Below are positions 3,912-19,856 of a DNA stretch of 64,000 nucleotides, one piece after another. The position numbers were made by a program, and so were the translations under genes. The stretch comes from Pseudonocardiales bacterium. GTDB taxonomy: Bacteria; Actinomycetota; Actinomycetes; Mycobacteriales; Pseudonocardiaceae. The DNA lies in assembly GCA_023252195.1 (NCBI GenBank), contig JAHEXI010000004.1, positions 186,001-250,000 on the forward strand, read 5' to 3'. Under the pieces are notes generated by a model that was not told where the DNA came from, did no database searches, and saw only the letters and a list, made by a program, of their open reading frames with translations. Position 1 is the first letter of the stretch, and every line of letters begins with the position of its first letter.

Positions 3912-6900
3912 CGACGGTGCACGCGAGTTGCATCGAGCCCGCTGAGCTTGCCGCGGAACTCGGTATCGCGCCCCCCACGGCGGAGCAGGCCACCGTCATC
4001 GCCGCCGACCCCGGAGGCCCCACGCTCGTGGTCGCTGGCGCGGGGTCGGGCAAGACCGAGACGATGGCCGCCCGAGTGGTGTGGCTGGTCGCGAACGGCT
4101 ACGTGACTCCCGACGGTGTGCTCGGCCTGACTTTCACCCGGAAAGCGGCTCAGCAGCTTGCCGAGCGGGTCCGGGTCCGGTTGCGCCGGCTCGCCGGTTC
4201 CGCAGTGCTGGATCGACTCGACCCGACCGGCCAGCGCAGGGCTGCGGTGCTGTCCGGTGAGGCCACCGTGCTGACCTACCACGCTTACGCTGGCCGGCTG
4301 GTTGCTGAGCACGCCCTGCGACTCCCTACCGACCCGGGGACTCGGCTGCTCACTGAGACCGGCGCGTGGCAGCTCGCGCATCGGGTCACCGCTGGCTGGG
4401 AACCGGACCTTGACCTGGACGGAAAGGTGCCGCACACGGTCACCGGTTGGGTGCTTGGGCTGGCGGGACAGCTCGCCGAGCACTTGTGCGAGCCGGAGCA
4501 GCTGCGGGAGTCCACCGAGGCAATGATCACGGCGCTGGTCACGGCTTCGCCGACCGCACGCCAGAAGGGCCCGGTGCACGGCGATCTCAAGCCGGTGGTG
4601 CGCGGTCAGCGGTCCCGGCTGGCGATACTGCCGCTGGTGGAGCACTACACCGAGCTCAAGCGCCGCGAGGCTGTACTCGACTTCGGTGATCAGATGGGCA
4701 TCGCAGCCGAGCTGGCGCGCGACCATCCGGAGGTCGGCGAGGCCGAGCGGGGCCGCTTCGGCGCAGTGCTGCTCGACGAATATCAGGACACCGGGCATGC
4801 CCAACGGGTGCTGCTGCGGTCATTGTTCGGCACCGTGGCAACGCCTGGGCGCGCGATCCCCGTCACTGCGGTCGGTGACCCTTGCCAGTCGATCTACGGC
4901 TGGCGCGGCGCCTCAGCGGCCAACCTGCCGCGGTTCACCACCGATTTCCCCCGCGACGACGGGACCCCCGCCCTCACTCGAGGACTGCTCACCAGCTTCC
5001 GCAACCCGCCCGAGGTGCTCGCGGTGGCTAACGCAGTCTCTGGCGAGCTTCGCAGCGGGCAGGTTCGCGTCGGCGAGTTGCGCTGCCGCGATGGTGCCCA
5101 ACCGGGCGAGGTCCGCTGCGCGCTGCTGCCTGACGTCCGTGCCGAGGTGAACTGGGTCGCTGACGCCATCGCCGGCCGCTGGCACTCGGCGGTGGTGGAC
5201 CAGGGCACCCCCCTGACCGCCGCGGTGTTGGTGCGCCGCCGCGCTGACATGGCGGTGCTGGCCGCGGCGTTGCGTACTCGCGATATCCCTGTCGAGGTGG
5301 TAGGCCTCGGCGGGTTGCTGGCTACGCCGGAGGTTTGCGACCTGGTGAGTGTGCTGCGGTTGCTCGTCGATCCGCTGGCGGGCACAGCTGCGGCGCGGCT
5401 GCTGACCGGTGCGCGGTGGCGGCTCGGCGCGGCGGATCTGGTCGCGCTGTGGTGTCGTGCGCGGGAGTTGGCGACGGATCACCGGACCCCATCGGGGCAC
5501 GGCGCTGAAGGTCCGGGCAGCGCGGAGGAAGTGTTGGCTGCCTTACCGGAGGGCCTACCTGGGGAGCTCGTCGACCAGGCGGGACTGGTCGACGCGCTGG
5601 ATTCGCCCGGCGATCCGGCCCGGTACTCCGAGCTGGGCTACCAGCGGCTGCGCACCCTGGCTGGCGAGCTGCGGGCACTGCGACACCGCGTTACCCAACC
5701 GTTGACCGATCTGGTCGCCGACGCCGAACGGACCCTGCTTCTTGATATCGAGTCGCTGGCCAGGCCTGGCCTCGCCGGCCGGGTCCACCTGGACACCTTT
5801 GCCGGCGTGGTAGCGGACTTCTCCGCGGCCAGCCCGATGGCCGGCTTGCCCGCGCTGCTGGACTACCTGGCCACCGCCGAGGACGCCGAAGATGGTCTCG
5901 AGTTGGGCGAGGTCGAGGTCGCCGATGACCGCGTGCAGATCCTCACCGTGCACGCGGCCAAAGGCCTGGAATGGCAGCTGGTAGCCGTCCCGCACCTGGT
6001 GGAGGGGGTGTTCCCGGCAGCCAAGAAGAGTTCGTCGTGGCTACGGACGGTCACCGAGCTGCCCATAACGCTGCGAGGCGACCGGGCCGATCTGCCCGAC
6101 CTGGCACTGCCCGCTGGTGCTGATCAGAAGGAGCTCGCCGTAGCTGTCGCGGACCACGAGGCGGCCTTCGACACCCGCAGGCTCATAGAGGAGCGCAGGC
6201 TGATGTATGTAGCGCTTACTCGCGCAGAGCAGACACTGCTGGTCAGTGGCCACCATTGGGGCGAGGCCGGCAATGCACCCCGGTCGCCCTCGCAGTTCCT
6301 GTTGGAGATTCGCGACGTCGAACACTGTGTGATCGATCAGTGGGCCGCAGCCCCCGCCGACGGCGAGCCAAACCCACTGGACTCCGAACCGCGCTGCGAG
6401 CCGACGCCGGCCGACCCGCTGGGCTCGCGGCGCGATGCTGTCGCTGAGGGCGCCCAACTGGTGCACGACGCGCTGGCGGTCGCGAACTCCGATCAGCACT
6501 CACCAGTGCGCAGCGCCGCGGGTTGGCAGCGCGAGATCGACGTGTTGCTCGCTGAGCGGGCGTCGCATCGCGCTGCGCAACGCGTCGTACTGCCCGCACA
6601 CCTGTCGGTGAGCCAGCTGGTGGAGCTCGCCGAGGACCCGTTGGCGCTGGCCGCCCGACTGCGCAGGCCCCTGCCGTTCGCACCGAACCCGATGGCTCGC
6701 CGCGGTACCGCCTTTCACGCATGGCTGGAACGCCGGTTCGGCTGCACTCGGCTGATCGATCACGACGAGTTGCCCGGCGCTGCTGATGAGGGCGCCGCTC
6801 CGAACGCCGAACTCGGGTTGCTCCAGGCCGCCTTCCTAGCCAGCGAATGGGCGCCACGTGGCCCGCACGACGTCGAGGTGCCTTTCGAGACCGTGTTGGA

Positions 6901-7267: not shown

Positions 7268-7443
7268 CTACGTATTCGACAAAGGACTCCGCCGCTAGGT
7301 AGTCAACCTAAGGATTTACGTGCGACTACCGATTGCCGCACGACGTTACTTCTCGGCAGGGTATGTGGTACTGAATCGGTAATTGTCGCCGATGAGGTGG
7401 TTTCCTGTGCCCGGGCCACCGGGACTTACCTTTTCTAGGAGGA
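7268..7443 (+). promoter_or_regulatory. Conserved upstream block 1 (peptide gene 1)
   Basis: Contains the element CTACGTATTCGA at 7268-7279, then a block at about 7315-7400 with GACTACCGATTGCC, GGCAGGGTATGTGG and an ATCGG...CCGAT stem (7375-7393). A strong Shine-Dalgarno AGGAGGA ends just before the start. The same order recurs before all four peptide genes at nearly fixed distance, far beyond chance. TTGCC and TATGT are 22-23 bases apart, too far for an ordinary -35/-10 pair, so I do not assign promoter boxes. Confidence 0.75.
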
Positions 7444-7447
7444 CTTG

Positions 7448-7747
7448 ATGTCTGATGCATTGAGCTTTGCGGAGATCGAGGGGCAGCACGTGGAGCTGCT
7501 GCCGGCCCGCACCGTCCTGTCAATGTTCAGCACCGGCAACGGTTCCCGCGGCGGCGACGCCGGCAACGGCGGCGCGGGCGGCACCAGTGGCACCGGCGGC
7601 GCGGGCAGCGGCAAGGCGGCACTGTTTGACAACTACTTCTACACCGAGGGCGACGTGATCAACACCGTCACCGGCGGCGAAGGCGGCGTCAGCGGCGCTG
7701 CTGACGGTGGTGCCGCTACCGGTGGTGCTGGCGAGTCCGGGCACTGA
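7448..7747 (+). CDS. Glycine-rich leader-type small peptide 1
   Basis: A 99-residue protein with a conserved N-terminal leader of about 27 residues (MSDALSFAEIEGQ, then VELLPARTVLSMF) followed by a glycine-rich tail. The leader is nearly identical in three downstream paralogues, while the tails are low-complexity G/N/A/T. This copy is the most divergent: in place of the NLLNxNLFGDQTN centre of the others it has an aromatic stretch, FDNYFYTEGD, then more glycine repeats and a GESGH end. No cysteines, membrane segment or classical signal peptide are present. The leader/variable-tail pattern resembles precursor peptides handled by a leader-recognising enzyme, and the PqqD-like M50 protease at 10208 is the obvious candidate. 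That link is inference. The ATG at 7448 sits 4 bases after AGGAGGA; a TTG directly before it is the alternative. Confidence 0.8.
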   Translation: MSDALSFAEIEGQHVELLPARTVLSMFSTGNGSRGGDAGNGGAGGTSGTGGAGSGKAALFDNYFYTEGDVINTVTGGEGGVSGAADGGAATGGAGESGH

Positions 7748-7797
7748 GCTGACAACTGTGCTCCAACAGCTCAGGGTCATCGCTCGGCGTGGGAGTT

Positions 7798-7831
7798 CCG
7801 GGTGGGGCGGCCACCTGGCCGCCCCACCCGG
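7798..7831 (+). terminator. Hairpin terminator after peptide gene 1
   Basis: Perfect 15-bp inverted repeat (7798-7812 with 7817-7831, loop ACCT), core GGGGCGGCC/GGCCGCCCC. There is no U-tract, as is usual in high-GC actinobacteria. Related hairpins follow the other three peptide genes. Confidence 0.75.
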
Positions 7832-7891
7832 TCTGCTGTGTCGGCAGTACGTACAGGCGCTGGGGAAATGTACGGCGCAAAACGTTGCTGC

Positions 7892-8079
7892 CTACGTATT
7901 CGAAAAGCGAATTGCACTGCCTGGGTCCGTTGCATAAGTAGTGCACTGGGGCGAGTTACGTGTTACTACTGATTGCCCTGCGACTCTACTGCAGGCAAAG
8001 TATGTGTTGCCGAATCGGTAATGCCGCCGATGAGGCGATTATCGTCCCGGATCACTGGGACCACCTTTCCTAGGAGGAT
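7892..8079 (+). promoter_or_regulatory. Conserved upstream block 2 (peptide gene 2)
   Basis: CTACGTATTCGA at 7892-7903 is identical to the element before gene 1. The block at about 7955-8038 has GTTACGTGTTACTACTGATT, then GTATGTG and the stem ATCGG/CCGAT at 8015-8032. CCTAGGAGGA precedes the start. Confidence 0.75.
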
Positions 8080-8082
8080 TTG

Positions 8083-8352
8083 ATGTCTGATGCATTGAGC
8101 TTTGCGGAGATCGACGGGCAGCGCGTGGAGCTGCTGCCGGCCCGCACCGTGATGTCGATGTTCAGTGCTGGTGGCGCCGGCCGGGGTGGCAACGGCGGGA
8201 CCGGCGGCACTGGCGGCGTCGGCCGGGGCGGACTCGGTATCAACCTCTTGAACCTCAACCTCTTCGGTGACCAGACCAACAGCGCTGGTGACGGGGTCGG
8301 TGGCGCGGGAGGTTCGGCCGAGGGCGGCAAGGGTGGAAGCATCAGCGGGTGA
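8083..8352 (+). CDS. Glycine-rich leader-type small peptide 2
   Basis: 89 residues. The leader MSDALSFAEIDGQRVELLPA continues RTVMSMF, then comes a GRGGNGGTGG-type spacer and a central segment GVGRGGLG, INLLNLNLFGDQTN. A glycine tail ends in GGSISG. The central segment alternates Asn/Leu in a beta-strand-like pattern and is shared with peptides 3 and 4. Glycine is the dominant residue and cysteine is absent. The ATG at 8083 lies after TAGGAGGA. The gene is flanked by its own upstream block and its own hairpin, so it is expected to be monocistronic. No known family is recognised; what is certain is the paralogy and the strict leader conservation. Confidence 0.82.
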   Translation: MSDALSFAEIDGQRVELLPARTVMSMFSAGGAGRGGNGGTGGTGGVGRGGLGINLLNLNLFGDQTNSAGDGVGGAGGSAEGGKGGSISG

Positions 8353-8404
8353 CTTGAGCCGGTGCCACTAGCGATCAGCTGATCGCACGGTGCGCGTTCA
8401 TGGG

Positions 8405-8433
8405 GAGGGGTGGCCAGATTACGGCCACCCCTC
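8405..8433 (+). terminator. Hairpin terminator after peptide gene 2
   Basis: Perfect 11-bp stem, GAGGGGTGGCC (8405-8415) pairing with GGCCACCCCTC (8423-8433), loop 7 bases. The stem sequence closely resembles those after peptide genes 1, 3 and 4. Confidence 0.75.
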
Positions 8434-8807
8434 TCTACTGGCGGGACGCCAAGATCAGCGACGACATAGCCCATCATCGGCATCCAGCAGGGTAGGTCGC
8501 CGTGAATCGCCAATACTGCCGACGAGCTCGGCTTGTTCCGTGCGCCAGGGAGCGCTTCATATTGCCGCGCCGGCCCCGGGTGTGAAGGTGGTGAGTGGCA
8601 AAGCCCTCGGTGGCCGGCCAATAGCGCAGGTGACTGTTTCGCCGGACGCGAGCTGCAGAGCCGACGGCGTACTGAGCGCCCACCATAGCTGAGCCGATTT
8701 GGTTACCATCTGGTCATCTGATCTGCGAGATAGGTGGTGGCGTAGGGGCGGCCGCCCGTTCATGTAGGTACTCCCAGTTGTCGATGTTCCGTAGTCTGTG
8801 CGGTCGA
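8434..8807. other. Intergenic stretch without a supported gene
   Basis: About 370 bases between the terminator of peptide 2 and the upstream block of peptide 3. Short open frames exist on both strands, but none has a ribosome binding site or a protein-like composition. I see no repeat of the cassette here. Confidence 0.5.
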
Positions 8808-8977
8808 CTACGTATTAGCGACGTTTGCCAGTCCTACGTAGCGACCTAAATTGAGTTACGTGTGACTACTGATTGCCACGAAGGTTACTGCGCGGCAGGG
8901 TATGAGTTACCAAATCGGTACTGCCACCGACCAGGTACTTATACCCGGCTCGCCGGGATCACCTTTCCTAGGAGGAT
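8808..8977 (+). promoter_or_regulatory. Conserved upstream block 3 (peptide gene 3)
   Basis: CTACGTATT at 8808-8816, with a second CCTACGTA at 8833-8840. The block at about 8855-8936 carries GAGTTACGTGTGACTACTGA, then GGCAGGGTATGAG and an imperfect ATCGG/CCGAC stem. CCTAGGAGGA lies just before the start. Confidence 0.75.
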
Positions 8978-8981
8978 TTAG

Positions 8982-9257
8982 ATGTCTGACGCATTGAGCT
9001 TTGCTGAGGTCGACGGTCAGCACGTGGAGCTGCTGCCCGCCCGTACCGTGATGTCGATGTTCACCGCTGGCCATGACGGCGGCGGCCGTGGGGGCAACGG
9101 CGGCGAGGGTGGCACCGGCGGCGTCGGCCGCGGCGGCCTCGGTCTCAACCTCCTCAACATCAACTTGTTCGGCGACCAGACGAACGACGCCGGCGGCGGC
9201 TTCGGCGGCGCTGGCGGCAGCGGCAACGGCGGTACTGGTGGAGCCGTAAGCGGCTGA
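8982..9257 (+). CDS. Glycine-rich leader-type small peptide 3
   Basis: 91 residues, the closest paralogue of peptide 2. It has the leader MSDALSFAEVDGQHVELLPA followed by RTVMSMF, a short HDGGGRGGNGG spacer, the shared centre GRGGLGLNLLNINLFGDQTN, and a tail of GG-N/S/T repeats ending GGAVSG. Substitutions between peptides 2 and 3 are conservative in the leader and centre and free in the glycine spacers. This suggests that the leader and the NLLNxN/GDQTN centre are the functional parts. The ATG at 8982 is placed by AGGAGG a few bases upstream and by alignment with its paralogues. Confidence 0.82.
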   Translation: MSDALSFAEVDGQHVELLPARTVMSMFTAGHDGGGRGGNGGEGGTGGVGRGGLGLNLLNINLFGDQTNDAGGGFGGAGGSGNGGTGGAVSG

Positions 9258-9306
9258 GTCGAGCCGGCGCTGCTAGCTGGTCACCTATTCGTGGCGGCGC
9301 CGCAGC

Positions 9307-9342
9307 CTGGGAGGGGTGGTCAATCGCTCCCACCCCTCCCAG
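9307..9342 (+). terminator. Hairpin terminator after peptide gene 3
   Basis: Perfect 13-bp stem (9307-9319 with 9330-9342), CTGGGAGGGGTGG against its complement, loop 10 bases. Confidence 0.75.
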
Positions 9343-9391
9343 CTAGTCATAGAGCAACTACCTGCGGAAACGGTGCTTGTGAGGTCTGCGT

Positions 9392-9619
9392 CGTAAGTAT
9401 TCGGATCTACACCTTCCGTAGAGCCTCGCAGGGACTAGGTATGATTATAGCTCGAATAGCCTAAGTACTACACTCGTAAGAGTTAAGTACTGCTACTGAT
9501 TGCCACATCGATCTTACCGTGGGCAAGGTATGTAGCGCCGGATCGGCACTGCCACCCGATGCGGTGTTCGTAGTCCTGAGGCCGTCTGCAGGTCACGGGA
9601 CCCACCTTTCCTAGGAGGA
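9392..9619 (+). promoter_or_regulatory. Conserved upstream block 4 (peptide gene 4)
   Basis: A degenerate form of the distal element, CGTAAGTATTCGG, lies at 9392-9404. The block at about 9482-9564 has GTTAAGTACTGCTACTGATT, then GGTATGTAG and an ATCGG/CCGAT stem at 9541-9560. CCTAGGAGGA precedes the ATG. Confidence 0.72.
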
Positions 9620-9622
9620 TCT

Positions 9623-9886
9623 ATGTCTGATGCACTGAGCTCGGCCGAACTTGACGCGCAGCGCGTGGAGCTGCTGCCGTCCCGCACCGTATTGTCGCTG
9701 TTCAGCGCCGCTGGACGCGGTGGCAATGGTGGCCTGGGTGCTCCCGGTGGGGTAGGCAGGGGCGGCCTCGGCGCCAACCTCATCAACGCCAACATCCTTG
9801 GCGACCAGACCAACCTCGCCGGTAGCGGTGTCGGCGGCGAGGGTGGCGGCGCAGCCGGCGGTACCGGCGGAGCTGTTTACCACTGA
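9623..9886 (+). CDS. Glycine-rich leader-type small peptide 4
   Basis: 87 residues and the most diverged leader of the set: MSDALSSAELDAQRVELLPS followed by RTVLSLF. The centre reads GRGGLGANLINANILGDQTN, so the Asn and GDQTN positions are kept while Leu/Phe side chains change to Ala/Ile. The glycine tail ends GGAVYH. The invariant residues across the four leaders are MSDALS, the A-E pair, VELLP, RTV and the terminal S-x-F. These would be the first place to look for a recognition or cleavage motif. The ATG at 9623 is supported by AGGAGG and by alignment. It is the last peptide gene before the M50 protease. Confidence 0.82.
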   Translation: MSDALSSAELDAQRVELLPSRTVLSLFSAAGRGGNGGLGAPGGVGRGGLGANLINANILGDQTNLAGSGVGGEGGGAAGGTGGAVYH

Positions 9887-9933
9887 TTTCGCCTGGTGCG
9901 ATCGGTAATCGCCGATGTTGCATGCGGGGGCGT

Positions 9934-9962
9934 GGGGGGTGGCCAGCCTACGGCCGCCCCTC
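9934..9962 (+). terminator. Hairpin terminator after peptide gene 4
   Basis: Stem 9934-9944 with 9952-9962 (GGGGGTGGCC region against GGCCGCCCC), containing two G-T pairs, loop of 7 bases. It is the fourth member of the same hairpin family. Confidence 0.65.
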
Positions 9963-10059
9963 CCGCACACCCGGTGAGCACGTTATTTTGCAGTGGCGCC
10001 GGCGAAACTAGGTAGTGACGAGCCGTGCCTGCGGGGTTAAGTGTCGGTAGGCTGGGTGG

Positions 10060-10085
10060 GCATTAAGTAAATGCTACTCATGGCG
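10060..10085 (+). promoter_or_regulatory. Partial copy of the peptide-gene block before the M50 gene
   Basis: The stretch ATTAAGTAAATGCTACTCAT at 10062-10081 aligns with GTTAAGTACTGCTACTGATT before peptide gene 4, with one or two gaps. It may put the protease gene under the same control as the peptides. The match is short. Confidence 0.45.
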
Positions 10086-10118
10086 TGTTTCGGGGCGGTG
10101 GTCTGTGACTCGAGCAGT

Positions 10119-10166
10119 TTTCGATTCGACGAAGTTTCGATTCGACGAAGTTTCGATTCGGCGGAG
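10119..10166 (+). repeat. Three tandem 16-bp direct repeats upstream of the M50 gene
   Basis: TTTCGATTCGACGAAG occurs at 10119-10134 and again at 10135-10150. A third, partly degenerate copy (TTTCGATTCGGCGGAG) is at 10151-10166. They end about 40 bases before the M50 start, which suits an iterated operator or leader element. I see no other copy in the window. Confidence 0.8.
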
Positions 10167-10207
10167 TGGGACTTTGAGTCGGGGAGGGCGTCATCGATAC
10201 TGAGCGT

Positions 10208-11551
10208 GTGGAGGTTGACTTTGGGTCGGCTGTGGGCACTGTGCCGCGCTTAGCTGACGGGGTCGAGCTGATCGGGGAGTATCAGGGATCGGGGTTTCAA
10301 GAGCCTCGCTACATCGTGCGTCGGTCCGATGGGCAGGTCATCCAGCTGCCCCGGTTGCTGTATCTGCTTGCGGCCAGCATGGATGGCCAACGCAACCAGG
10401 CACAGGTTGCTGGTGTGCTCAGCGCCGAGTTCGGCAAGGTGGTCCAGGCCGAGCAGGTGGCGTTTTTGGTGGACAACCGGTTGCGCCCGGCGGGGATCGT
10501 GGCGGCTGATCCGGGGGCTGGTGACCCACAGACCGGACCGGATGGTGCGGCACCGAAGATGGCGGTGAAGTCGGATCCGTTGTTGGCCTTGAAGTTCCGG
10601 GTCGGGGTCGTCCCGGAGCGGACGGTGTGGCGCATCGCTGGGATGTTCGGCCCGATGTTTTGGCCGCCGGTGATCCTCGCCACGTTGGCCAGCTTCGTCG
10701 GCTTGGACGTGCTGATCATCGCCCAGGGGGGTCTGGGGCGGATCGTGCCCAGCGCGATCGCGTTGATCTACCAGCCGGCGTTGACCCTGCTGGTGCTGGG
10801 TTTGATCTTGGCGTCAGCGGCGTTTCACGAGTGCGGTCATGTCACCGCCTGCCGCTATGGCGGCGCCAAACCAGGGGTGATGGGTTTCGGTCTTTATCTG
10901 GTGTGGCCGGCGCTGTACAGCACGGTCACCGACTCCTACCGGCTGGGACGGGTCGGTCGATTACGCACCGACCTGGGTGGCGTGTACTTCAACGCGGTGT
11001 TCATCGCCGGGATGAGTGTCGCCTACCTGTATACCGGGGCACCGTGGCTACTGGTGGCCATCGTGGCGTTACATGTCGAGACCGCGACGCAGTTCCTGCC
11101 GATGATCCGACTGGATGGCTACTACATCCTTAGTGACCTGATCGGGGTTCCCGATCTGTTCAGCCGGATGGGACCCGTGTTGGCGAGCATCATTCCCGGG
11201 CGGGCGAAGCATCCTCGGGTACAGGAACTCAAGCCGTGGGTCCGTCGAATGATCACCCTGTGGGTGCTCATCGTGGTGCCCTACCTAGGGTACTGGTTGA
11301 TCGGTTTCCTGATCGTGATTCCTCGGGTGCTGCCAGTGGTGTGGCACCGGCTTGTCTTTTTGATCCACGCCGTGGGGCAAGCAGCATCGGCCAGCCACGG
11401 AGCCGAGGCTGCGTTGGGTGTAGTGCAGATCGTTTTGCTATTGCTACCGTGGGTGGGCTCTTCGCTGATGTTGGGAATGATGGCTCGGCGGCCGGTTCGG
11501 TGGCTACGACGGCGGCTGGCGCCAGCGGCGGTCAGCGCAGGGAGGATCTAA
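10208..11551 (+). CDS. Membrane M50-type zinc metalloprotease with PqqD-like N-terminal domain
   Basis: A 447-residue integral membrane protein of the 'putative peptide zinc metalloprotease' type. Residues 20-100 form a PqqD-like/winged-helix domain (YIVRRSDGQVIQLP...LLYLLAASMDG...FLVDNRLRPAGIV), the fold used by many peptide-modifying enzymes to bind leader peptides. The site-2 protease core follows: hydrophobic segments near 150-170 and 180-206, the zinc motif HECGH at 207-211, and the LDGYY motif at 302-306 that supplies the third ligand. Three or four more membrane helices follow to the C-terminus. The GTG at 10208 is chosen because no in-frame start lies just upstream. It is directly abutted by the lipoprotein gene (TAA then GTG). 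The context makes it the probable processing or export factor for the four small peptides; this is inference. Confidence 0.85.
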   Translation: MEVDFGSAVGTVPRLADGVELIGEYQGSGFQEPRYIVRRSDGQVIQLPRLLYLLAASMDGQRNQAQVAGVLSAEFGKVVQAEQVAFLVDNRLRPAGIVAADPGAGDPQTGPDGAAPKMAVKSDPLLALKFRVGVVPERTVWRIAGMFGPMFWPPVILATLASFVGLDVLIIAQGGLGRIVPSAIALIYQPALTLLVLGLILASAAFHECGHVTACRYGGAKPGVMGFGLYLVWPALYSTVTDSYRLGRVGRLRTDLGGVYFNAVFIAGMSVAYLYTGAPWLLVAIVALHVETATQFLPMIRLDGYYILSDLIGVPDLFSRMGPVLASIIPGRAKHPRVQELKPWVRRMITLWVLIVVPYLGYWLIGFLIVIPRVLPVVWHRLVFLIHAVGQAASASHGAEAALGVVQIVLLLLPWVGSSLMLGMMARRPVRWLRRRLAPAAVSAGRI

Positions 11552-12565
11552 GTGTTGGTGTCCCCGAACGGTGGCACGCAACGTGGCGCACTTCGTGGCA
11601 CGGGGCGGTGGACCGGACGGTTTGGTAGCGCGGTGGCGGTCCTCGCCGCGGTGGGCTCGCTGGCCGGCTGCCTCGGCACGTCGGCCGGCGGAACTCCCGG
11701 CATGGCGGGCACCGGCAGTCCCGGTACCAGTAGTAGCGGCGGAAATGGCTACGGTGGAAATGGCGGTGACGCTAATGGCGGCGGTACCGGGGGCAACGGC
11801 GGCAATGGCTATGGCGGTTGGGGCGGCAATGGTTACGGCGGCAACGGCGGCAACGGTGCTGATGGCCGTGATGGTGTAGATGGTACTGGGGGAGGTAGTT
11901 TCTCCGATCCCGGTGCGGTGGCTGGTTCTGGTCGGCTGACCACCCGGACGGTAGATCTGTCCGGGGTCACCTCGGTGGTGGCGGAGGCCAATTTCGTGGT
12001 GCACCTCAGGACGGCCCGCTCTGCACAGGCCGTGGTCACGATGGATGACAACCTGACTGATCGCGTCGCGGCCACCGTCACCGGCGGCCAGCTACGTCTG
12101 GGGATCAAGCCGGGTATGAGTGTCCGAAATGCGACGTTGTCCGCTGATGTCACGGTGGGCCAGCTCGATCGACTGGCCACCGCGGGGGCCAGTCGGGTAA
12201 TTCTGGACCCAACGCTGACTAGCCCCGCGCTGCACCTGAACATCGCTGGGACCAGCGCAATCACCGGCCCTGTCATGGTCGGTCGGGTGCAGGCGACGGT
12301 CTCCGGCGCCGGTACCCTGGCGCTGTCCGGGAATGTTGCGCAGCTGAGTTTCAGTGCGGCGGGAGCCAGCCAGCTGCCGCTAGCAGATCTCACCGTCCGC
12401 TATCTTGACGCGACGCTGTCCGGGGCCAGCCATGCCACCGTGACGGTGACCGACACGCTAGCGGTACAGGCCGCAGGTGCCTCGGTGCTTCGCTATCGGG
12501 GCAACCCGAGCGTCACCCGCTCCCAGACGTCGGGGATGTCGTCGATAGTGCCGGATTCACCGTAA
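11552..12565 (+). CDS. Glycine-rich lipoprotein with GIN (DUF2807) domain
   Basis: A 337-residue predicted lipoprotein. The N-terminus has arginines, then a hydrophobic stretch (FGSAVAVLAAVGS), then the lipobox LAGC with Cys40, so it should be anchored to the outer face of the membrane. Residues 45-115 are glycine-rich (NGYGGNGG, NGGNGYGGWGG), very like the tails of the small peptides. Residues 130-320 are a GIN/DUF2807 beta-solenoid-like adhesin head, with repeating TVSGAGTL, ATLSGASH and VQAAGAS strands. The GTG at 11552 lies 5 bases after GCAGGGAGGA and immediately after the protease stop, so the two are translationally coupled. It may anchor or display the peptides at the surface; this is inference from composition and linkage. 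Confidence 0.85.
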   Translation: MLVSPNGGTQRGALRGTGRWTGRFGSAVAVLAAVGSLAGCLGTSAGGTPGMAGTGSPGTSSSGGNGYGGNGGDANGGGTGGNGGNGYGGWGGNGYGGNGGNGADGRDGVDGTGGGSFSDPGAVAGSGRLTTRTVDLSGVTSVVAEANFVVHLRTARSAQAVVTMDDNLTDRVAATVTGGQLRLGIKPGMSVRNATLSADVTVGQLDRLATAGASRVILDPTLTSPALHLNIAGTSAITGPVMVGRVQATVSGAGTLALSGNVAQLSFSAAGASQLPLADLTVRYLDATLSGASHATVTVTDTLAVQAAGASVLRYRGNPSVTRSQTSGMSSIVPDSP

Positions 12566-12877
12566 GTAATTGACGGTCATTGTTAAGTGATCGAATGCAC
12601 CTGAACGCACTGTCACCGAATGAGCACACACGGTTACCGAGCACGGATCTCGCGATCCATACTCGCGCTAATATCCACATTACTTGACGTGTCGCCCATG
12701 GCGATTTCGTCACCGTTAGCATATGCTGACCCAAGGGGTAGTTGGTCAGCTATTGGCGCGACGCGGGGGGGCGTAGCCAATGTATCAGAGGGGCTGGGGG
12801 CGGTCGGAAGTTCGCACCATGCCATCCACTGTGCCTCCGACCAGCGCGAGGTACCGAGCGCGTTGGTCGGGGCAGCT
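12566..12877. other. Intergenic region upstream of the LuxR-type regulator
   Basis: About 310 bases with lower GC than the flanking genes in the first half. It holds AAGTAATTGACGGTCATTGT at 12564-12583, loosely like the peptide-block element. The regulator frame stays open through most of this region (from 12620), but the encoded residues are not family-like. Confidence 0.5.
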
Positions 12878-15511
12878 ATGAGGACGGATCCGTGGACGCT
12901 CACGGGACGTGACCTAGAGTTGCAGTTTATCGCTGAGCGTTTAACTAGTGGGGAATCACGCAGTGTGGTCATCGCCGGCCCGGCCGGGGTGGGCAAGACC
13001 AGACTCGCGCGGGAAGCGCTGGCGGTCGCCAAACGCGGTGGTCGGGTGACGCAGTGGGCGGCGGGGACCAGTGCGGCGGCCGCGATACCGCTGGGCGCGG
13101 TGGCGCACCTGCTCCCTTCAGTGGGGACGGTGTCTGATCCGCTGACCTTGCTGCAGCGCGCCGGCGCCGCAATCGCCGAGCAGGGCAATGGCCACCGGCT
13201 GGTCATCGGGATCGACGATGCGCATCTGCTGGATGAGCTGTCGGTGACGTTGCTCCATCAGCTGACCTTGACCCGCACCGCGAGTGTGGTGTTGACCGTT
13301 CGGACCGGAGAGCCTGCTCCCGATCCAGTGGTGACGCTGTGGAAGAACGGGTTAGCCGACCGGTTGGAGCTGGCGCAGCTGCCGCGCGCGGAGCTGGAGC
13401 GGCTGGTGACCGGCGTGCTCGGCGGGGTGGTGGACAGCCGCACGATCGAGCGGTTGTGGCGCGCCACTCGCGGCAACGTCCTTTTCCTGCGGGAGCTCGT
13501 GGAGGGCGGGTGCGAGACCGGTGCTCTGCGGATGCGCGGGGACGTCTGGCGCTGGGAGGGCCGGATGGAGCCCACTCCCCGGCTACGCGAGATCGTCCGG
13601 GCCCAGCTGGGTGGACTGGGCGCTGATGAGCGGACCGCGCTGGAGTTACTGGCCACCGACGAGCCGCTGGGTCTTGGGCGGGTAGCGAGCCTGATCAACC
13701 CGGAGGTGGTCGCGGTGCTGGAGCGTCGCGGCTTGGTGACCGTGGTCAACAGTGGCTGGCGGGCCGAAGTGTGGCTGGCCCACCCGATCTACGCCACGGT
13801 GGTTCGCGACCAGCTGCCGGAGGCCAATGCCTGCCGGCTGCGCCGCCGGCTGGCCAACACCCATTTGCCCTGGAAACGCCAGGACGATCTGCTGCGTGCC
13901 GGCCTGCTGCTGCTGGACAGCGACCAACCCGGTGCACACGCCAGCCTGTTGGCGGATGCCGCGGTGCACGCCAACGCACTACTGGATCATGAAAATGCCG
14001 CTCGGATGGCACAGGCGGCGATTGACGGCAGCGACGGCCGGGACGGTATGCGGGCGCATCTGGCGTTGCTCGAGGCGGTGCGCTGGCAGGGCCAGCCCGA
14101 TCGTGCCGAGCAGGTGGCTGCGACGGCAGCGCCATTCGCCACCTCGGCGGAGGACCGATCGCATCTGGCTGTGGTGCGGGCCCTGAATCTGTTCTTTGGC
14201 CTTGGCCAGGTGGCGAAGGCCGAAGCCATCCTGCACAAGGCAGCTGCCGACTCGGCTGACAACCAGACGTGCCGCCACACCAGCGCCGTCCATGGTGTGC
14301 TGGCGTTTTTCGCGGGACGTCCCCAGCAGGCTGCGGAGTCCGGTGCGGAGATTCTGGCATCAGAAGGGGTCAGCGCGGAGGCGACGATGTGGGCGTCGAG
14401 CGCGACCGCGGCGGGGTTGGCCGCCCGCGGTCGCATCACCGAGGCGCTCTCGGCGGTGGAGGGTGGCTGGGCGGCGCTTTCGCGGTGCACGATCGAGCCG
14501 GAGATGGCGTTATGCCGGCAACTGCTGGCTCATGGTGAGCTGTCGGCATTGTTGCTCGCTGGCCGCGTGCATGACGCCGTGGCTCGGGCAACCAAGTTGC
14601 ACGAATGGTGTATGACTCAGCCGCAGTGGGCCGGGGATGCATTGGCGGCTGCCCATGTCGGGTGGTCAGCGCTGGCCGCTGGACGTCCGCGCACCGCCGT
14701 CCGGTGGTTGTCTGAAGCAGTGGCCGGCCTGAGCCAGATTGATCCGGGCGGTTTTGGACAACTGTGTATTGCGCTGCTTGCGCAGACCCACGCTCAGCTC
14801 GGCGACGCCGCGGCCGCGCGGCGGCTGTTGGATAGCGGCGGAGTTGGCCACCACTGCGCGGTGTTCGAGCCGGAGTGGTTGTTGGCGGAGGCTTGGCAAG
14901 CGGCTGCTGAGGACCGGATCTGCCAGGCGACGGATCGGGCGTTGCGCGCAGCGTCGGTGGCGGCCGGCATGGGAGAGCGTGCCGTTGAGGCCCAAGCCCT
15001 GCACACCGTGGTTCGGCTGGGCCGGGCCAGCCAGGTGGTGGGACGGTTGCGGCAGTTGGCCGGCCAGGTCGAAGGTCCGCTGGTAGCCGCCTACAGCGCG
15101 CACGCGCAGGCGGCGGCGGCCAACGCCGGTGGACCGCTGGATGAGGTGGCGGCGGAGTTCGAAGTGATGGGAGCCCGGCTGCTGGCTACCGACGCGGCTG
15201 CGCACGCTGCGGCGGCGCACCTGCGCGCCGGTGACCGGCGTCGAGCGGCCGCATCCACAGCTCGAGCTGCCAGCCTGGCCCGAGCCTGCGAAGAGATCCG
15301 CACTCCTGCCCTGGAGCAGCTCGCACCGCGACCGCTGACCAGCCGGGAGGGCGAGGTCGCCAGTCTGGTGGTGCAGGGCATGAAGAATCAGGCCATCGCG
15401 GAGCGACTGGTGCTCTCAGTGCGGACAGTGGAGGCGCACCTGGCCAACGCTTACGCCAAACTGGGGATCAGCAGCCGCGCCGAACTGGCCCGAGCGTTGC
15501 GGGCGGACTGA
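12878..15511 (+). CDS. Large LuxR-family (LAL) transcriptional regulator
   Basis: About 877 residues. An N-terminal AAA/STAND ATPase has Walker A GPAGVGKT at residues 34-41 and Walker B LVIGIDDAHLLDE near 110-120. A long helical TPR-like middle follows, and the C-terminus is a LuxR-type helix-turn-helix (PLTSREGEVASLVVQGMKN, then IAERLVLSVRTVEAHLANAY). This is the architecture of LAL regulators, which bind ATP and an unknown inducer and then DNA. The frame is open from 12620. I prefer the ATG at 12878, just before TLTGRDLELQ, because the preceding residues look non-family; no strong ribosome site decides it. Its place after the lipoprotein gene makes it the candidate regulator of the peptide cassettes. 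Confidence 0.8.
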   Translation: MRTDPWTLTGRDLELQFIAERLTSGESRSVVIAGPAGVGKTRLAREALAVAKRGGRVTQWAAGTSAAAAIPLGAVAHLLPSVGTVSDPLTLLQRAGAAIAEQGNGHRLVIGIDDAHLLDELSVTLLHQLTLTRTASVVLTVRTGEPAPDPVVTLWKNGLADRLELAQLPRAELERLVTGVLGGVVDSRTIERLWRATRGNVLFLRELVEGGCETGALRMRGDVWRWEGRMEPTPRLREIVRAQLGGLGADERTALELLATDEPLGLGRVASLINPEVVAVLERRGLVTVVNSGWRAEVWLAHPIYATVVRDQLPEANACRLRRRLANTHLPWKRQDDLLRAGLLLLDSDQPGAHASLLADAAVHANALLDHENAARMAQAAIDGSDGRDGMRAHLALLEAVRWQGQPDRAEQVAATAAPFATSAEDRSHLAVVRALNLFFGLGQVAKAEAILHKAAADSADNQTCRHTSAVHGVLAFFAGRPQQAAESGAEILASEGVSAEATMWASSATAAGLAARGRITEALSAVEGGWAALSRCTIEPEMALCRQLLAHGELSALLLAGRVHDAVARATKLHEWCMTQPQWAGDALAAAHVGWSALAAGRPRTAVRWLSEAVAGLSQIDPGGFGQLCIALLAQTHAQLGDAAAARRLLDSGGVGHHCAVFEPEWLLAEAWQAAAEDRICQATDRALRAASVAAGMGERAVEAQALHTVVRLGRASQVVGRLRQLAGQVEGPLVAAYSAHAQAAAANAGGPLDEVAAEFEVMGARLLATDAAAHAAAAHLRAGDRRRAAASTARAASLARACEEIRTPALEQLAPRPLTSREGEVASLVVQGMKNQAIAERLVLSVRTVEAHLANAYAKLGISSRAELARALRAD

Positions 15512-15531
15512 GGCCACAAAAGGGGTGGCTT

Positions 15532-16644
15532 GTGGTCGTGTTGTTCGGCGCGACTGGGTACACCGGTCGTCGGACCGCCGAGGCGATGGTGCGGCGGGGT
15601 CTGCGGCCGGTGCTGGCCGGACGCAGCCCGGGCCGGCTCACGTCGCTCGCGCAGCGGCTCGAGAAGCTGGGGTTCGGCAAGCTGGACGTGGTGACTGCTG
15701 ACATCGGCGATGCCGCGTCGGTGCGGGCGCTGATCGGCCGGGGTGACGTGCTGGTCAGCACCGTCGGCCCGTTCATCCGGCTCGGCGGTCCAGCGCTGAG
15801 CGCGTCGGTCGACGTGGGGGCGATCTACCTCGACTCGACTGGCGAGCCCCCGTTCATCCGTCGGGTGTTCGAGGAGTTCGGCCCCCGGGCTCAGCAGACC
15901 GGGGCTAGCTTGATCACCGCCTTCGGTCACGACTACGTGCCCGGCAACCTCGCCGGCGCCCTCGCGCTGGGAAGCTCGGGTGGCCGGGTGCACCGGGTCG
16001 AGGTCGGTTATCTGATTGGTGGAACTGGCCGGTCTCCGGTCATCAGTCGCGGCACGTTCGCCTCGATTGTGGGGCTGGTCACCGAGCAGAGCTTCACCTG
16101 GCGAGCCGGGATCAAGCCAGAACCCACCGGGTCGCGGATGCGGACCTTTTCGGTGGGCGGCCGGGACTGCCCGGCGCTGACCATCGGTTCCACGGAGCAC
16201 TACTCACTTCCCCGGCTCGCTGGTCGGGTAGGGCTTCCCGAGGTCGACGTCTACCTCGGCTTCTTCGGACCTGCGGCGCGCGCGCTGCAGCTGTCCTCCC
16301 GAGTTATCCCGGCACTGCTGGCGTTGCCCGGGGCGCGCTCGGCGGTCCGCAGAATCGGGCAGTTCGCGGCGCATTGGATCGCCGAAGAGCCTGATCCATC
16401 GGCCCTGGCGCAGGTTACTTCGCACGTCGTGGGCACCGCCTACGACGCCGCCGGCACCGCCTTGGCGCAGGTCCGCCTGGAATCTGGCGATCCTTACCAG
16501 CTCACAGCGAACCTGCTTGCCTGGGGCGCGCAGCGGGCCGCCGAGCACGGCGTGTCCGGACCGGGAGCCCTAGGCCCAGTCGAAGCCTTCGGCCTACCAG
16601 CGCTGGAAGCCGGAGCCCTCCAAGCCGGCCTACGTCGCGTCTGA
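15532..16644 (+). CDS. Saccharopine dehydrogenase-like NAD(P)-binding protein
   Basis: A 370-residue protein with an N-terminal Rossmann fold (VVLFGATGYTGRRTAEAMVR) and the following 'RPVLAGRSPGRL' strand-helix typical of the saccharopine dehydrogenase-like/trans-acting enoyl reductase family. The domain near residues 60-90 contains DVLVSTVGPFIRLG, and near residue 125 there is TAFGHDYVPGNLAG. Family members act on polyketide-derived lipids in mycobacteria, but the substrate cannot be told here, and lysine metabolism is unlikely for this subgroup. The GTG at 15532 lies after AAAAGGGGTGG, 21 bases beyond the LuxR stop, so it may be co-transcribed with the regulator. A palindrome that could end transcription follows the stop. 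Confidence 0.8.
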   Translation: MVVLFGATGYTGRRTAEAMVRRGLRPVLAGRSPGRLTSLAQRLEKLGFGKLDVVTADIGDAASVRALIGRGDVLVSTVGPFIRLGGPALSASVDVGAIYLDSTGEPPFIRRVFEEFGPRAQQTGASLITAFGHDYVPGNLAGALALGSSGGRVHRVEVGYLIGGTGRSPVISRGTFASIVGLVTEQSFTWRAGIKPEPTGSRMRTFSVGGRDCPALTIGSTEHYSLPRLAGRVGLPEVDVYLGFFGPAARALQLSSRVIPALLALPGARSAVRRIGQFAAHWIAEEPDPSALAQVTSHVVGTAYDAAGTALAQVRLESGDPYQLTANLLAWGAQRAAEHGVSGPGALGPVEAFGLPALEAGALQAGLRRV

Positions 16645-16656
16645 CCCCCGGATGCG

Positions 16657-16721
16657 GCGTCATTCGGAGCCGAATGACGCTCTGTGGTCCGGCGTGACAG
16701 CGATTCGGCTCCGAATGGCGC
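16657..16721 (+). repeat. Pair of related palindromes (terminator or repetitive element)
   Basis: A perfect palindrome lies at 16657-16680 with half-site GCGTCATTCGG and a 2-base centre. A second, related one lies at 16700-16721 (core ATTCGG-CT-CCGAAT). They fall between a stop codon and the start of the next gene, so they could end transcription or bind a dimeric regulator. The near-identity suggests a dispersed intergenic repeat. Confidence 0.7.
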
Positions 16722-16729
16722 GGTCTAGG

Positions 16730-17185
16730 ATGCGCCGGGTGAGCGGCAGGGATACGGCGGGTGCGGGTGTTGTGGTTCTGGTTCTAGTGCTGGGACTGGG
16801 GTCGATGGGTATGGGGTGGCTGATGTGGCCATCCGCCGCCGGTGTTGTCCGTGCTGGTCAGGGCACCGTGGTGGAGTCGGTGCTCTGCGGTCCTTCCGAC
16901 GCGCAGGACCTGGTGCGCGTCGAGTTGCTCGACGGTCGCGAGGTAACGGGTCGGCTGGATGGCTGCGGTCATCGGCTGGGTGAGGTGCTGGCCGTCGAAG
17001 TGCCCGACCCGCTGCCCGCGGGTGAGCTGGTAGCCCGTCTCGCTGGGACCGGGGTGCCAACCACTTCGTCGAACGGGCAGCGGCTGGGTGCTGGCGGTGT
17101 CGCGGTCGCCGGGATTGCCGGTGCGCTGCTGGCGTGGCGGCTGCGCAGAGAGTTCAGCGCCGACCGCCGTAGGGTGGTCTCATGA
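16730..17185 (+). CDS. Small two-helix membrane protein of unknown function
   Basis: About 151 residues from the ATG at 16730. A first membrane helix (GAGVVVLVLVLGLGSMGMGW) lies near residues 11-32. An extracytoplasmic domain of about 80 residues follows, with two cysteines (ESVLCGPSD and RLDGCGHRLG) and a GREVTGRLDGC beta hairpin. A second helix (GGVAVAGIAGALLAW) precedes a basic cytoplasmic tail. The frame extends to 16652, but that part runs through the palindromes, so the later ATG is preferred. The stop overlaps the ATG of the M16 protease gene (ATGA), which suggests a role linked to that protease pair. No family is recognised. Confidence 0.7.
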   Translation: MRRVSGRDTAGAGVVVLVLVLGLGSMGMGWLMWPSAAGVVRAGQGTVVESVLCGPSDAQDLVRVELLDGREVTGRLDGCGHRLGEVLAVEVPDPLPAGELVARLAGTGVPTTSSNGQRLGAGGVAVAGIAGALLAWRLRREFSADRRRVVS

Positions 17186-18495
17186 CCCGCATTCCGTCAC
17201 CCACGGTGGAGCTGCACCGCGAGACCTTGTCCAACGGGCTGCGGGTGGTGCTGAGCCCGGACCAATCCGCTCCGGTGGTGGCCGTCGGCCTGCATTATGA
17301 CGTCGGCTTCCGCTCCGAGCCGGAGGGTCGCACTGGCTTCGCGCACCTCTTCGAACACCTGATGTTCCAGGGTAGCGAGAGTCTGGAGAAGCTCGCGCAT
17401 TTCCGCCACGTGCAGTCCTCGGGTGGGTCCTTCAACGGATCCACGCACCCCGACTACACCAACTACTTCGAAGTACTGCCCTCGGCAGCGCTGGAGCGTG
17501 CGCTGTTCATGGAGGCGGACCGGATGCGGGCCCCGCGGATCACCACGGAAAACCTGCGCAACCAGGTCGACGTGGTCAAAGAGGAGATTCGGCTCAACGT
17601 ACTGAACCGGCCCTATGGCGGATTCCCGTGGATCACGCTGCCGCCGGTGCTCTATGACACCTTTCCCAACGCGCACAATGGATACGGTGACTTTTCCGAG
17701 CTGGAAGCGGCCACCGTCGACGACTGCGCGGCATTTTTCGATGAATACTATGCGCCGGGCAATGCAGTAATCACGATATGCGGGGACTTCCAGGTCGATG
17801 CCGCTGTCGAGCTGGTGCACCGACATTTCGACGACGTTCCCAGCCGGCCGGTTCCGGTGCGACCGTCGTTCGCCGAGCCGCCACCGGACCGAGAGCGGCG
17901 CCACGACCATCCGGATCCGCTCGCCCCGCTACCCGCGTTGGCCATCGGCTACCGGCTGCCCGATCCCACCGCCGGTTTCGACGGCTACCTCGCCTACGAG
18001 GTGCTCGCCGCGGTGCTGTCCGACGGAGATTCCTCCCGGTTAGAGCAACGCCTCGTGCACACCGACGCGTTAGCAACCGACATCGGTGCCCGCTGCGGTC
18101 TGTTCGGTGCGCCCTTGGACGCGCGCGATCCGGACACCTTCACCATCACCGCCGTCCATCCAGCCACGGTCGACGTCAACCGGGTGATCGAAGCAGCCGA
18201 CGAGGAGATCGCCCGGCTCGCCGCGGACGGACCGGACGCAGACGAGTTGGCTCGGATCACCGCCCGGTGGGCCGCGACAGTGTTCCGGGAACACGACCGG
18301 CTGGTGTCGCGGACGATGGCCATCGGTGCCTTCGAGCTGCTACATGGGCGTGCCGAGCTGATCGCGGAGCTGCCCGTCATGGTGGCGACCATGGGCGCTG
18401 AGCAGATCGCGAGCGCCGCTGCGGCGCTACGACCGGACTCCCGCGCGGTGTTGATCGTCCAGCCCGCCTCTTCAGCAGCAGGACAGGAGGCGTGA
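17182..18495 (+). CDS. M16-family zinc metallopeptidase, catalytic subunit
   Basis: 437 residues. The inverted zinc motif HLFEH is at residues 55-59 (TGFAHLFEHLMFQG), with the downstream glutamate helix VVKEEIRLN near 130-138 that supplies the third ligand. The C-terminal half is the second M16 fold. It forms a pair with the next gene, as in mitochondrial processing peptidase and bacterial M16 heterodimers, where one subunit is catalytic and the other is not. No signal peptide is seen, so it is probably cytoplasmic. The start overlaps the upstream membrane-protein stop, and the stop overlaps the next ATG, so three genes form one coupled unit. Confidence 0.9.
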   Translation: MTRIPSPTVELHRETLSNGLRVVLSPDQSAPVVAVGLHYDVGFRSEPEGRTGFAHLFEHLMFQGSESLEKLAHFRHVQSSGGSFNGSTHPDYTNYFEVLPSAALERALFMEADRMRAPRITTENLRNQVDVVKEEIRLNVLNRPYGGFPWITLPPVLYDTFPNAHNGYGDFSELEAATVDDCAAFFDEYYAPGNAVITICGDFQVDAAVELVHRHFDDVPSRPVPVRPSFAEPPPDRERRHDHPDPLAPLPALAIGYRLPDPTAGFDGYLAYEVLAAVLSDGDSSRLEQRLVHTDALATDIGARCGLFGAPLDARDPDTFTITAVHPATVDVNRVIEAADEEIARLAADGPDADELARITARWAATVFREHDRLVSRTMAIGAFELLHGRAELIAELPVMVATMGAEQIASAAAALRPDSRAVLIVQPASSAAGQEA

Positions 18496-19856
18496 TGCGG
18501 CACCGCAGCGCCGAGCAGATCGGCAGGACCGAGCTGGGGCCCCGCCCGCTACCGTCGCTGGGTCCGCCGCGCACGCCAATCGCCCCGTTTGCCGTGGACA
18601 CCGTGCTCGACAGCGGGCTGCGGGTAATCGCGGTGCGACGGCCGGCGGTGCCGATGGTGGAGCTGCACCTGGAGATCCCGTTCGGCGGCACGCAGCGCAC
18701 CCATCCGGCCCGCGCCGAAGTGCTGGCGATGACGCTGCTTCGTGGTACGCCGCGGCGGGATCGGTTCGACATCGACAAGATGCTGGGCGCCGTCGGCGGT
18801 GACCTGTCCGCCGGGGTGGATCCAGAGCACCTGTCGGTGTCAGGATCAGCGCTGGCCAGCGGGCTCGACGTGGTGCTCGACGTGCTCGGCGACGCGCTCA
18901 CCTCGGCCTCGTACGCCACCGCCGAAGTGGCCCGGGAGCGGGACCGCCTGGTGGAGCGGCTCACGATGAACCGTTCGCAGCCGCAAGTGATCGCACGCGA
19001 GGCGTTGCAGCGCCGCCGCTACGGCAACCACCCGTTCGCCCGGGAATGGCCGGAGGTCGCTGACGTTGCCGGCGTGACGCAGGCCGCAGTGCGCGCCCTG
19101 CACCGTCGCTCGGTGGCGCCCGGCGGTGCCGTCCTGGTGCTGGTCGGCGACATCGTCCCCGACCGTGCAGTCGAAGCGGTGGAGACGGCCCTGGCGGGCT
19201 GGCGCTCCGATCACCCTGCAGTCGAGTTGGCGGTGTTGCCCGAGCTGACAGGTGGTGACCTGCAACTGGTCCATCGCGAGGGCGCAGTGCAGTCCCAGCT
19301 GCGCATGTCCGCACAGGCAGTATCACGCAATCACGAACGCTATCCGGCGCTGCAGGTGGCGAATCTGGTATTCGGCGGGTATTTCTCCTCGCGCTGGGTG
19401 GAGAACGTCCGGGAAGCCAAGGGCTACACCTACGCCGCGCACTGTGGCTTTGAGTTCACCCGGCATGGGGCCACACTGGTCGCCGAGGCGGACACCGCCA
19501 GCGAGGTCACCGCCGCCGCGTTGCTGGAGACCCGCTACGAATTGGGGCGGCTGGTCGTCGTTCCCCCCGACGATTCCGAGGTGGACAGCGCTCGACAGTA
19601 CGCGATCGGGTCGATGACCATCGCCACCTCGTCGCAACGGGGGTTGGCCGGCCACCTGGCCACGTTGGCGACCCTCGGCCTGGACCTCGACTGGTTACTC
19701 AGCCATACCGGCCGATTGCAGACCGTCACGACCGGGCAGGTTGCTGAGGCCGCCGCTGAGTTCTTCGCGCCGACCCGGTTCACCGGTGTGGTGGTGGGCG
19801 ATGGCAAACGACTGGCCGACCCGCTCGCTGCCCTTGGCGGCGTGGAACTTCCCTGA
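18495..19856 (+). CDS. M16-family metallopeptidase-like protein, non-catalytic partner
   Basis: 453 residues of M16 fold. Where the HxxEH motif should stand the sequence reads THPARAEVLAMTLLRGTP, so the zinc ligands are missing and this should be the non-catalytic partner. The C-terminal domain is well kept: SQLRMSAQAV, LVFGGYFSSRWVENVRE, and the KGYTYAAHCGFE segment that closes over substrate in M16 enzymes (the R/Y pair). The ATG at 18495 overlaps the stop of the catalytic subunit and follows GGACAGGAGG; a GTG three bases earlier is possible. The pair may degrade peptides. Confidence 0.87.
   Translation: MRHRSAEQIGRTELGPRPLPSLGPPRTPIAPFAVDTVLDSGLRVIAVRRPAVPMVELHLEIPFGGTQRTHPARAEVLAMTLLRGTPRRDRFDIDKMLGAVGGDLSAGVDPEHLSVSGSALASGLDVVLDVLGDALTSASYATAEVARERDRLVERLTMNRSQPQVIAREALQRRRYGNHPFAREWPEVADVAGVTQAAVRALHRRSVAPGGAVLVLVGDIVPDRAVEAVETALAGWRSDHPAVELAVLPELTGGDLQLVHREGAVQSQLRMSAQAVSRNHERYPALQVANLVFGGYFSSRWVENVREAKGYTYAAHCGFEFTRHGATLVAEADTASEVTAAALLETRYELGRLVVVPPDDSEVDSARQYAIGSMTIATSSQRGLAGHLATLATLGLDLDWLLSHTGRLQTVTTGQVAEAAAEFFAPTRFTGVVVGDGKRLADPLAALGGVELP

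Follow-up and report, generated by a model that had tools for sequence, protein, structure and literature searches.

Introduction

The window analysed here, a 64,000-nucleotide stretch from a Pseudonocardiales bacterium (GCA_023252195.1, contig JAHEXI010000004.1, positions 186,001 to 250,000), contains at positions 7268-15511 four genes for small peptides that share an N-terminal leader, followed by a gene for a membrane protease. The question raised by this locus is whether the protease recognises the leader and releases the remainder of the peptide. An earlier note had described the four peptides, a protease joining an RRE (recognition element of ribosomally synthesized and post-translationally modified peptides, RiPPs) to an M50 domain with HECGH at residues 207-211, a lipoprotein and a LuxR regulator, all of which were found at the positions given there. 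The analysis indicates that the locus probably encodes a leader-dependent maturation and release system, in which an RRE-guided intramembrane protease frees many small beta- or glycine-rich peptides.

In the proposed mechanism, the first 28 or so residues of each small protein would serve as a tag, with VELLPARTVLSMF at its end, and the remainder would be a beta-prone tail that is variable and mostly rich in glycine. The tag would be bound by the N-terminal RRE domain of the protease, and the M50 site-2 protease (S2P) would cut at or near the membrane, releasing the tail outside, with no requirement for a tailoring enzyme. One or two proteases would act in trans on about twenty dispersed precursors. 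Outside, the tails would most likely join a glycine-rich partner, exported separately, to form an extracellular layer, the putative partner being a GIN lipoprotein here and a different glycine-rich protein in Saccharopolyspora, and a LAL protein would control expression. Gene content, folds, conservation, co-occurrence, the tracking of leader and protease, and a shared upstream element were computed in the present work.

The peptides and the protease

The features that carry the argument are the following.

7448..7747, + strand: leader peptide 1, 99 amino acids (aa), Gly/Ala-rich core; leader model match
8083..8352, + strand: leader peptide 2, 89 aa; leader model match
8982..9257, + strand: leader peptide 3, 91 aa; leader model match
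9623..9886, + strand: leader peptide 4, 87 aa; leader model match
10208..11551, + strand: RRE-site-2 protease, 447 aa; relative of daptide_HExxH, under the cut-off (99.7 vs 300 bits)
10238..10513, + strand: RRE/PqqD-fold domain of the protease, about residues 11-102
10826..10840, + strand: HECGH zinc motif of the protease, residues 207-211; H207, E208, G210 and H211 invariant in 58 sequences
11114..11119, + strand: second S2P motif of the protease, D303-G304, invariant in 58 sequences

The four window peptides had near-identical N-termini, MSDALSFAEIDGQxVELLPARTVxSMF, and diverged past residue 28, beyond which glycine made up 37-48% of the residues. When the orthologues of the four genes were compared with three related genomes, the pooled ratio of nonsynonymous to synonymous differences (pN/pS) was 0.21 in the leader and 0.40 in the core. 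The peptides were therefore taken to be real genes, since they are under purifying selection that is stronger in the leader than in the core. No Pfam or NCBIfam model scored above its cut-off for the leader peptides; the matches to PF14404 Strep_pep (E 0.84), TIGR00693 (E 0.023) and TIGR04270 (E 0.075) were weak. GC-rich inverted repeats resembling terminators were seen by eye at 7800-7829 and after other peptide genes.

The structure of the protease was predicted by AlphaFold from 58 sequences, replacing a poor 18-sequence model (pLDDT 64.8). Structure comparison showed that the prediction resembled both leader-binding RREs and site-2 proteases. The RRE part consisted of three strands followed by three helices, matching leader-bound RREs, and the protease had the S2P fold. 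The M50 catalytic HExxH and DG motifs were invariant in 58/58 aligned family sequences. The PF02163 score was 9.1 bits, against a gathering threshold of 27.2 bits, and PF05402 did not detect the protease's own RRE. The closest named family, that of the daptide protease (NF041824), gave 99.7 bits against a cut-off of 300, and the epipeptide protease model (NF058609) gave 39.7 against 225. Judged by its sequence, the protease is a divergent branch of M50.

Co-occurrence of leader and protease

The protease was found in 38 of 200 genomes of the host family, which are not independent of one another. Clade A (at least 56% identity) was present in 23, while the others had distant or partial members only. 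Leader matches at E<1e-5 were found in every one of the 23 clade-A genomes and in 0/177 others. Three weak leader matches (E 0.001-0.007) came from G017, where the proteases are distant ones, and from G106 and G192, where there are none. Within groups g4, g25 and g46, some genomes had both leader and protease and others had neither. The 11 genomes of the window's own genus had 5-26 leaders each, mostly dispersed.

In a sample across the class, the protease family was present in 46 of 296 genomes (E<1e-30). The named relatives were from Pseudonocardia, Saccharopolyspora, Geodermatophilus, Blastococcus, a Sporichthyaceae metagenome-assembled genome (MAG) and an Acidimicrobiia MAG; the nearest relatives of the window protease were themselves MAGs, mostly Pseudonocardiales or Pseudonocardiaceae. 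Three Chryseobacterium proteins were also seen, at 24-28% identity.

The earlier note had proposed co-occurrence of leader and protease as a check, and adjacency proved to be far above control: a leader-like motif, written after the leaders had been seen, lay within 1.5 kb upstream on the same strand at 70/90 protease loci versus 33/970 control windows. The 90 loci remained from 105 proteases after 13 near-identical sequences (leaving 92 distinct) and two with short upstream sequence were dropped. The match at L167, counted among the 70, appears to be spurious. A looser post hoc search of the 20 misses, made without a control, added 17 loci, one of which (L174) was already known, and brought the count to 87/90. 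Most of the 17 encode proteins about 200-300 residues long, in which ALPDKEVxSLLDLN close to the N-terminus precedes NANVAAPI repeats. Eight distant members (L104, L105, L107-L109 and L192-L194) were preceded by NANVAAPIDAAV-repeat proteins, and a long C-terminal extension was checked in L104, L105 and L107-L109. At L102 (G017 C1, 5074-14158), three family proteases lie in 10 kb with leader-like peptides upstream of each.

Leader type and protease clade

The residue that follows LPx[R/K] in the leader was compared with the position of the protease on a tree of 88 sequences, in which L213 and L167 were unlabelled and 19 labels were assigned manually. This residue was T or S in 44/45 clade-A rows and E in 39 of the 43 rows outside clade A. 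The T group needs three changes on the tree, compared to a mean of 29.6 for shuffled labels, and 0/500 shuffles were as low, a test that is inflated by near copies. The label A of L110 was taken from an opposite-strand peptide, though a downstream peptide on the same strand reads R-T. As a cleaner comparison, nine of the 200 genomes (G046, G079, G112, G129, G145, G153, G161, G174 and G186) have proteases of both clades: in 9/9, R-T or R-S is read at the clade-A locus and R-E or R-K at the clade-B locus.

The predicted recognition and cutting of the leader by the RRE-protease, as the earlier note had suggested, is well supported by the fold, the catalytic residues conserved throughout the 58 sequences, the confinement of strong leader matches to the clade-A genomes, the adjacency and the clade tracking.

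Dispersed leader genes and the upstream element

The count of four leader genes in the earlier note holds for the window; the total for the genome is 21, spread over 13 contigs and all matched by the leader model at E 3e-7 or lower, with the next match only at E 0.47. Their consensus leader is MSDALSFAExDGQHVELLPARTVLSMFS, and one gene, on contig C37, has no clear start. Six of the 21 adjoin a protease or a fragment of one: the four in the window, one on C44 next to a second protease that is 77% identical to the window protease, and one on C13 next to a broken protease. The tail of the C44 peptide, at 13471 on the minus strand of L004, is a GGDK tandem repeat broken by an assembly gap.

The tails of the dispersed peptides vary widely. 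Two cysteines are present in the core of 5/21 precursors (the gapped precursor was left out of this count), a C-terminal Thr is found in only one of the 21, which was read across the assembly gap, and most cores contain few basic residues. No neighbouring gene was common to at least three of the 13 dispersed leader loci, including those on C44 and C13, in a neighbour clustering that used a simple gene caller, larger groups only and masked low-complexity sequence.

An element of 88 positions lies directly upstream of 16 of the 21 leader genes, the four in the window and 12 elsewhere. The window copies, each upstream or in the 5' untranslated region of a peptide gene, were located with covariance model R1.

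7360..7450, + strand: element of peptide gene 1; E 9.3e-18, training member
7999..8085, + strand: element of peptide gene 2; E 7.1e-21, training member
8899..8984, + strand: element of peptide gene 3; E 1.6e-17, training member
9527..9625, + strand: element of peptide gene 4; E 1.0e-13, training member

All 16 matches at E<1e-9 in the genome are training genes of R1 and so match by construction. Outside the training set, R1 matched a relic, an additional leader gene and, weakly, two sites on C26. A wider regulon marked by the element had no support in this genome, where 150 of 4312 first-look candidates were scored, a number that leaves absence elsewhere unproved. The element contains an inverted repeat, TCGGC..GCCGA, that also occurs as TCGAC..GTCGA. 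In the folded alignment there were double changes in 4/8 pairs, only one of them within the TCGG repeat, and the covariation term was small (-0.49 of -4.14 kcal/mol). The element could be an RNA hairpin or a DNA operator, as an operator would give the same pattern. In the relic (L057 7049-7136; G000 C10:15048-15135) the element is present (E 0.002) with no peptide gene after it. Peptide gene and upstream region appear to travel together as a cassette.

Dispersed, changing cassettes served by one protease might also be expected if the peptides were antimicrobials or toxins in an arms race, with no structural role. The 5-26 copies per genome in the genus, the variable tails, the relic and the weaker constraint on the core than on the leader are all compatible with this idea. 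We nevertheless consider it improbable: 1) no neighbour was shared by at least three of the 13 dispersed loci and there is therefore no common immunity or export gene, 2) the cores are themselves constrained (pN/pS 0.40), 3) most have few basic residues and 4) the glycine-rich neighbours described below point to assembly.

Neighbouring genes

Two further genes follow the protease in the window.

11552..12565, + strand: glycine-rich lipoprotein with a DUF2807 (head GIN) domain; LAGC lipobox by eye
12878..15511, + strand: LAL-type LuxR regulator (AAA_16 + GerE); called open reading frame (ORF) start 12620; placed from Pfam and homologue start positions

The lipoprotein belongs to DUF2807 (PF10988, 102.6 bits; cut-off 24.2). 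Its GTG start comes immediately after the protease stop codon (11551/11552), and at two loci (L121 and L127) lipoprotein and protease are in one reading frame. Among the loci compared, it occurs in the window's own genus and P. acidicola only. At 14/16 Saccharopolyspora-type loci (not L093 or L174) there is a different GGxGG-rich protein, usually of about 430 residues, with an N-terminus that by eye resembles a signal peptide and no Pfam family. Extracellular assembly is favoured mainly because the same kind of peptide is adjoined by two glycine-rich proteins that have no family model in common; the suggestion in the earlier note that the tails may assemble at the surface with the lipoprotein is strengthened by this second neighbour. 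Near a leader peptide at L112 there are two glycine-rich ORFs with signal-peptide-like starts (3526-4269 and 5491-6204, minus strand).

The start of the LAL regulator called at 12620 is probably too early, as the alignments begin at residue 44-91 for ten homologues from outside the genus and at residue 12-83 for seven from within it; the true start is perhaps the in-frame ATG at 12878. The regulator is present at 10/14 Pseudonocardia/Geodermatophilaceae loci and at the main loci of the own genus. This proximity to the protease would suit a pheromone circuit in which the LAL protein senses the peptides as signals. However, no LAL regulator was found at the Saccharopolyspora-type clade-A loci or at 26 further loci (24 of clade B), and long repetitive tails would be unlikely pheromones, so that a circuit of this kind is very improbable.

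Twenty representatives of recurrent neighbours were scanned against Pfam. They comprised transporters, histidine kinases, TetR and BTAD regulators, a PEP-utilising enzyme, GGDEF, GT87, glutaredoxin, ABC ATPase, FHA, DinB, protein kinase and OTCase proteins and two without a family; many are common surroundings of one genus. There was no known RiPP maturase among the 20. A daptide-type decarboxylase, aminotransferase or methyltransferase was not seen by eye within 7268-18500 or among these neighbours, the genome as a whole not having been searched for them. The absence of a radical SAM gene reported in the earlier note holds at the locus; elsewhere, the sole PF05402 match in the genome is a PQQ-type PqqD beside a PqqE-like protein, in what by eye looks like a PQQ operon.

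These results bear on whether the locus is part of a true RiPP pathway, in which unlinked modifying enzymes would also be recruited by the leaders, leaving only the last step to the protease, as is the case for MpaP in daptides. In its favour are the daptide protease as the closest named family (99.7 bits), the two core cysteines in five of the precursors and, according to the parts of the literature consulted, the common use of RRE domains by modifying enzymes. Nevertheless, such a pathway appears unlikely in view of the lack of a known maturase among the recurrent neighbours, the PQQ-type PqqD as the only PF05402 match and the 20/21 precursors that do not end in Thr. Divergent RREs could escape PF05402, because the model also fails on the RRE of the protease itself.

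An ATPase-like gene (GERGQGKTRLLR...LVGLLDEWTPV) is found as copies and apparent fragments near secondary protease loci, three of which were clustered and the others recognised by eye.

L002, 4014-4262: ATPase-like copy or fragment
L003, 1067-1824: ATPase-like copy or fragment
L119, 7469-8449: ATPase-like copy or fragment
L121, 11362-12828: ATPase-like copy or fragment
L127, 1625-3094: ATPase-like copy or fragment

Evidence weighed against the proposed release system

Several observations weigh against a leader-dependent release system. Ranked by Z, the closest structural counterpart of the RRE part (9.8) is not an RRE; it is a domain from the methyltransferase Rv2067c. The leaders are not transmembrane-like, having a maximum 19-residue hydropathy of 0.14-0.78, which is unusual for an S2P substrate. 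G106 and G192 have weak leader matches (E 0.005 and 0.007) yet no protease. Conversely, L213 and L167 had no convincing leader after the strict and looser searches; at L110 no leader lies upstream on the strand of the protease, the peptides being on the other strand or downstream. L114 belongs to clade A and reads R-A, and the tracking of leader and protease may partly be plain common descent. Neither the GIN lipoprotein nor the LAL regulator is part of the core, because the former is lineage-restricted and the latter is missing at many loci. Binding, the cleavage site, the export route, assembly and regulation we infer from computation.

According to the earlier note, leaders found mostly without the protease, or a protease conserved beside other substrates, would speak against the pairing. 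In the window's own genome 15 of the 21 leader genes are indeed distant from any protease, yet none of the 200 genomes has strong leaders alone. The protease does occur beside other substrates elsewhere, yet the majority have a related leader of the LPx[R/K] type. A broader proposal is an actinobacteria-wide secretion route, with the RRE-site-2 protease as a general sorter that would cut, in the membrane, many often unlinked and unmodified precursors bearing an N-terminal LPx[R/K] tag, whose beta- or glycine-rich tails would polymerise outside with a glycine-rich partner exported separately; we offer it tentatively, as possible and somewhat doubtful.

Comparison with known systems

In the PEP-CTERM/exosortase and LPXTG/sortase systems, one membrane enzyme acts on many dispersed substrates through a shared tag. 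The tag described here differs in being N-terminal and the enzyme in being an RRE-site-2 protease. PE_PGRS and other glycine-rich surface proteins have a GGxGG composition that the present peptides share, but the latter are small, lack a Pfam domain and have an N-terminal leader of a new type.

Titles and abstract openings in the open-licence literature, searched by leader strings and by topic, gave no description of the system, and the portions of the RRE literature examined made no mention of M50. As far as the consulted parts of the two reports extend, MpaP and EpeP are precedents for removal of a peptide leader by an M50 protease (PMC10036551, PMC10885120). For EpeP/YydH/LiaK, an M50 protease, the presumed role is to cleave a small peptide and export it (PMC10885120). 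The protease described here likewise accompanies small peptides; it differs in its score (39.7 versus 225 bits for NF058609), and there is no radical SAM gene among the 20 scanned neighbours.

The closest likeness by score is to MpaP (NF041824), in which an RRE is fused N-terminally to an intramembrane site-2 protease, with several short precursors in the daptide cluster, and which finishes a modified peptide (PMC10036551, in the parts consulted). The same fusion is found here, also with several short precursors. The differences are that 1) the leader, its consensus compared by eye, lacks the ELExMEAP motif given for daptides in the same source, 2) there is no C-terminal Thr save in the one gap-crossing precursor, 3) no daptide-type tailoring gene was seen at the loci, 4) the score is 99.7 rather than 300 bits and 5) the precursors are dispersed over the genome. 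The window system would thus work like the last daptide step, yet by leader motif, Thr, nearby genes and score it falls outside the daptides.

Compared with daptide clusters, as partially consulted, the RRE-site-2 pair is found here with substrates and no recognised tailoring enzyme. If the proposal is true, actinobacteria have a way of freeing small structural peptides that needs no exporter in the cluster, and the tag would allow many unannotated small proteins to be found and tested.

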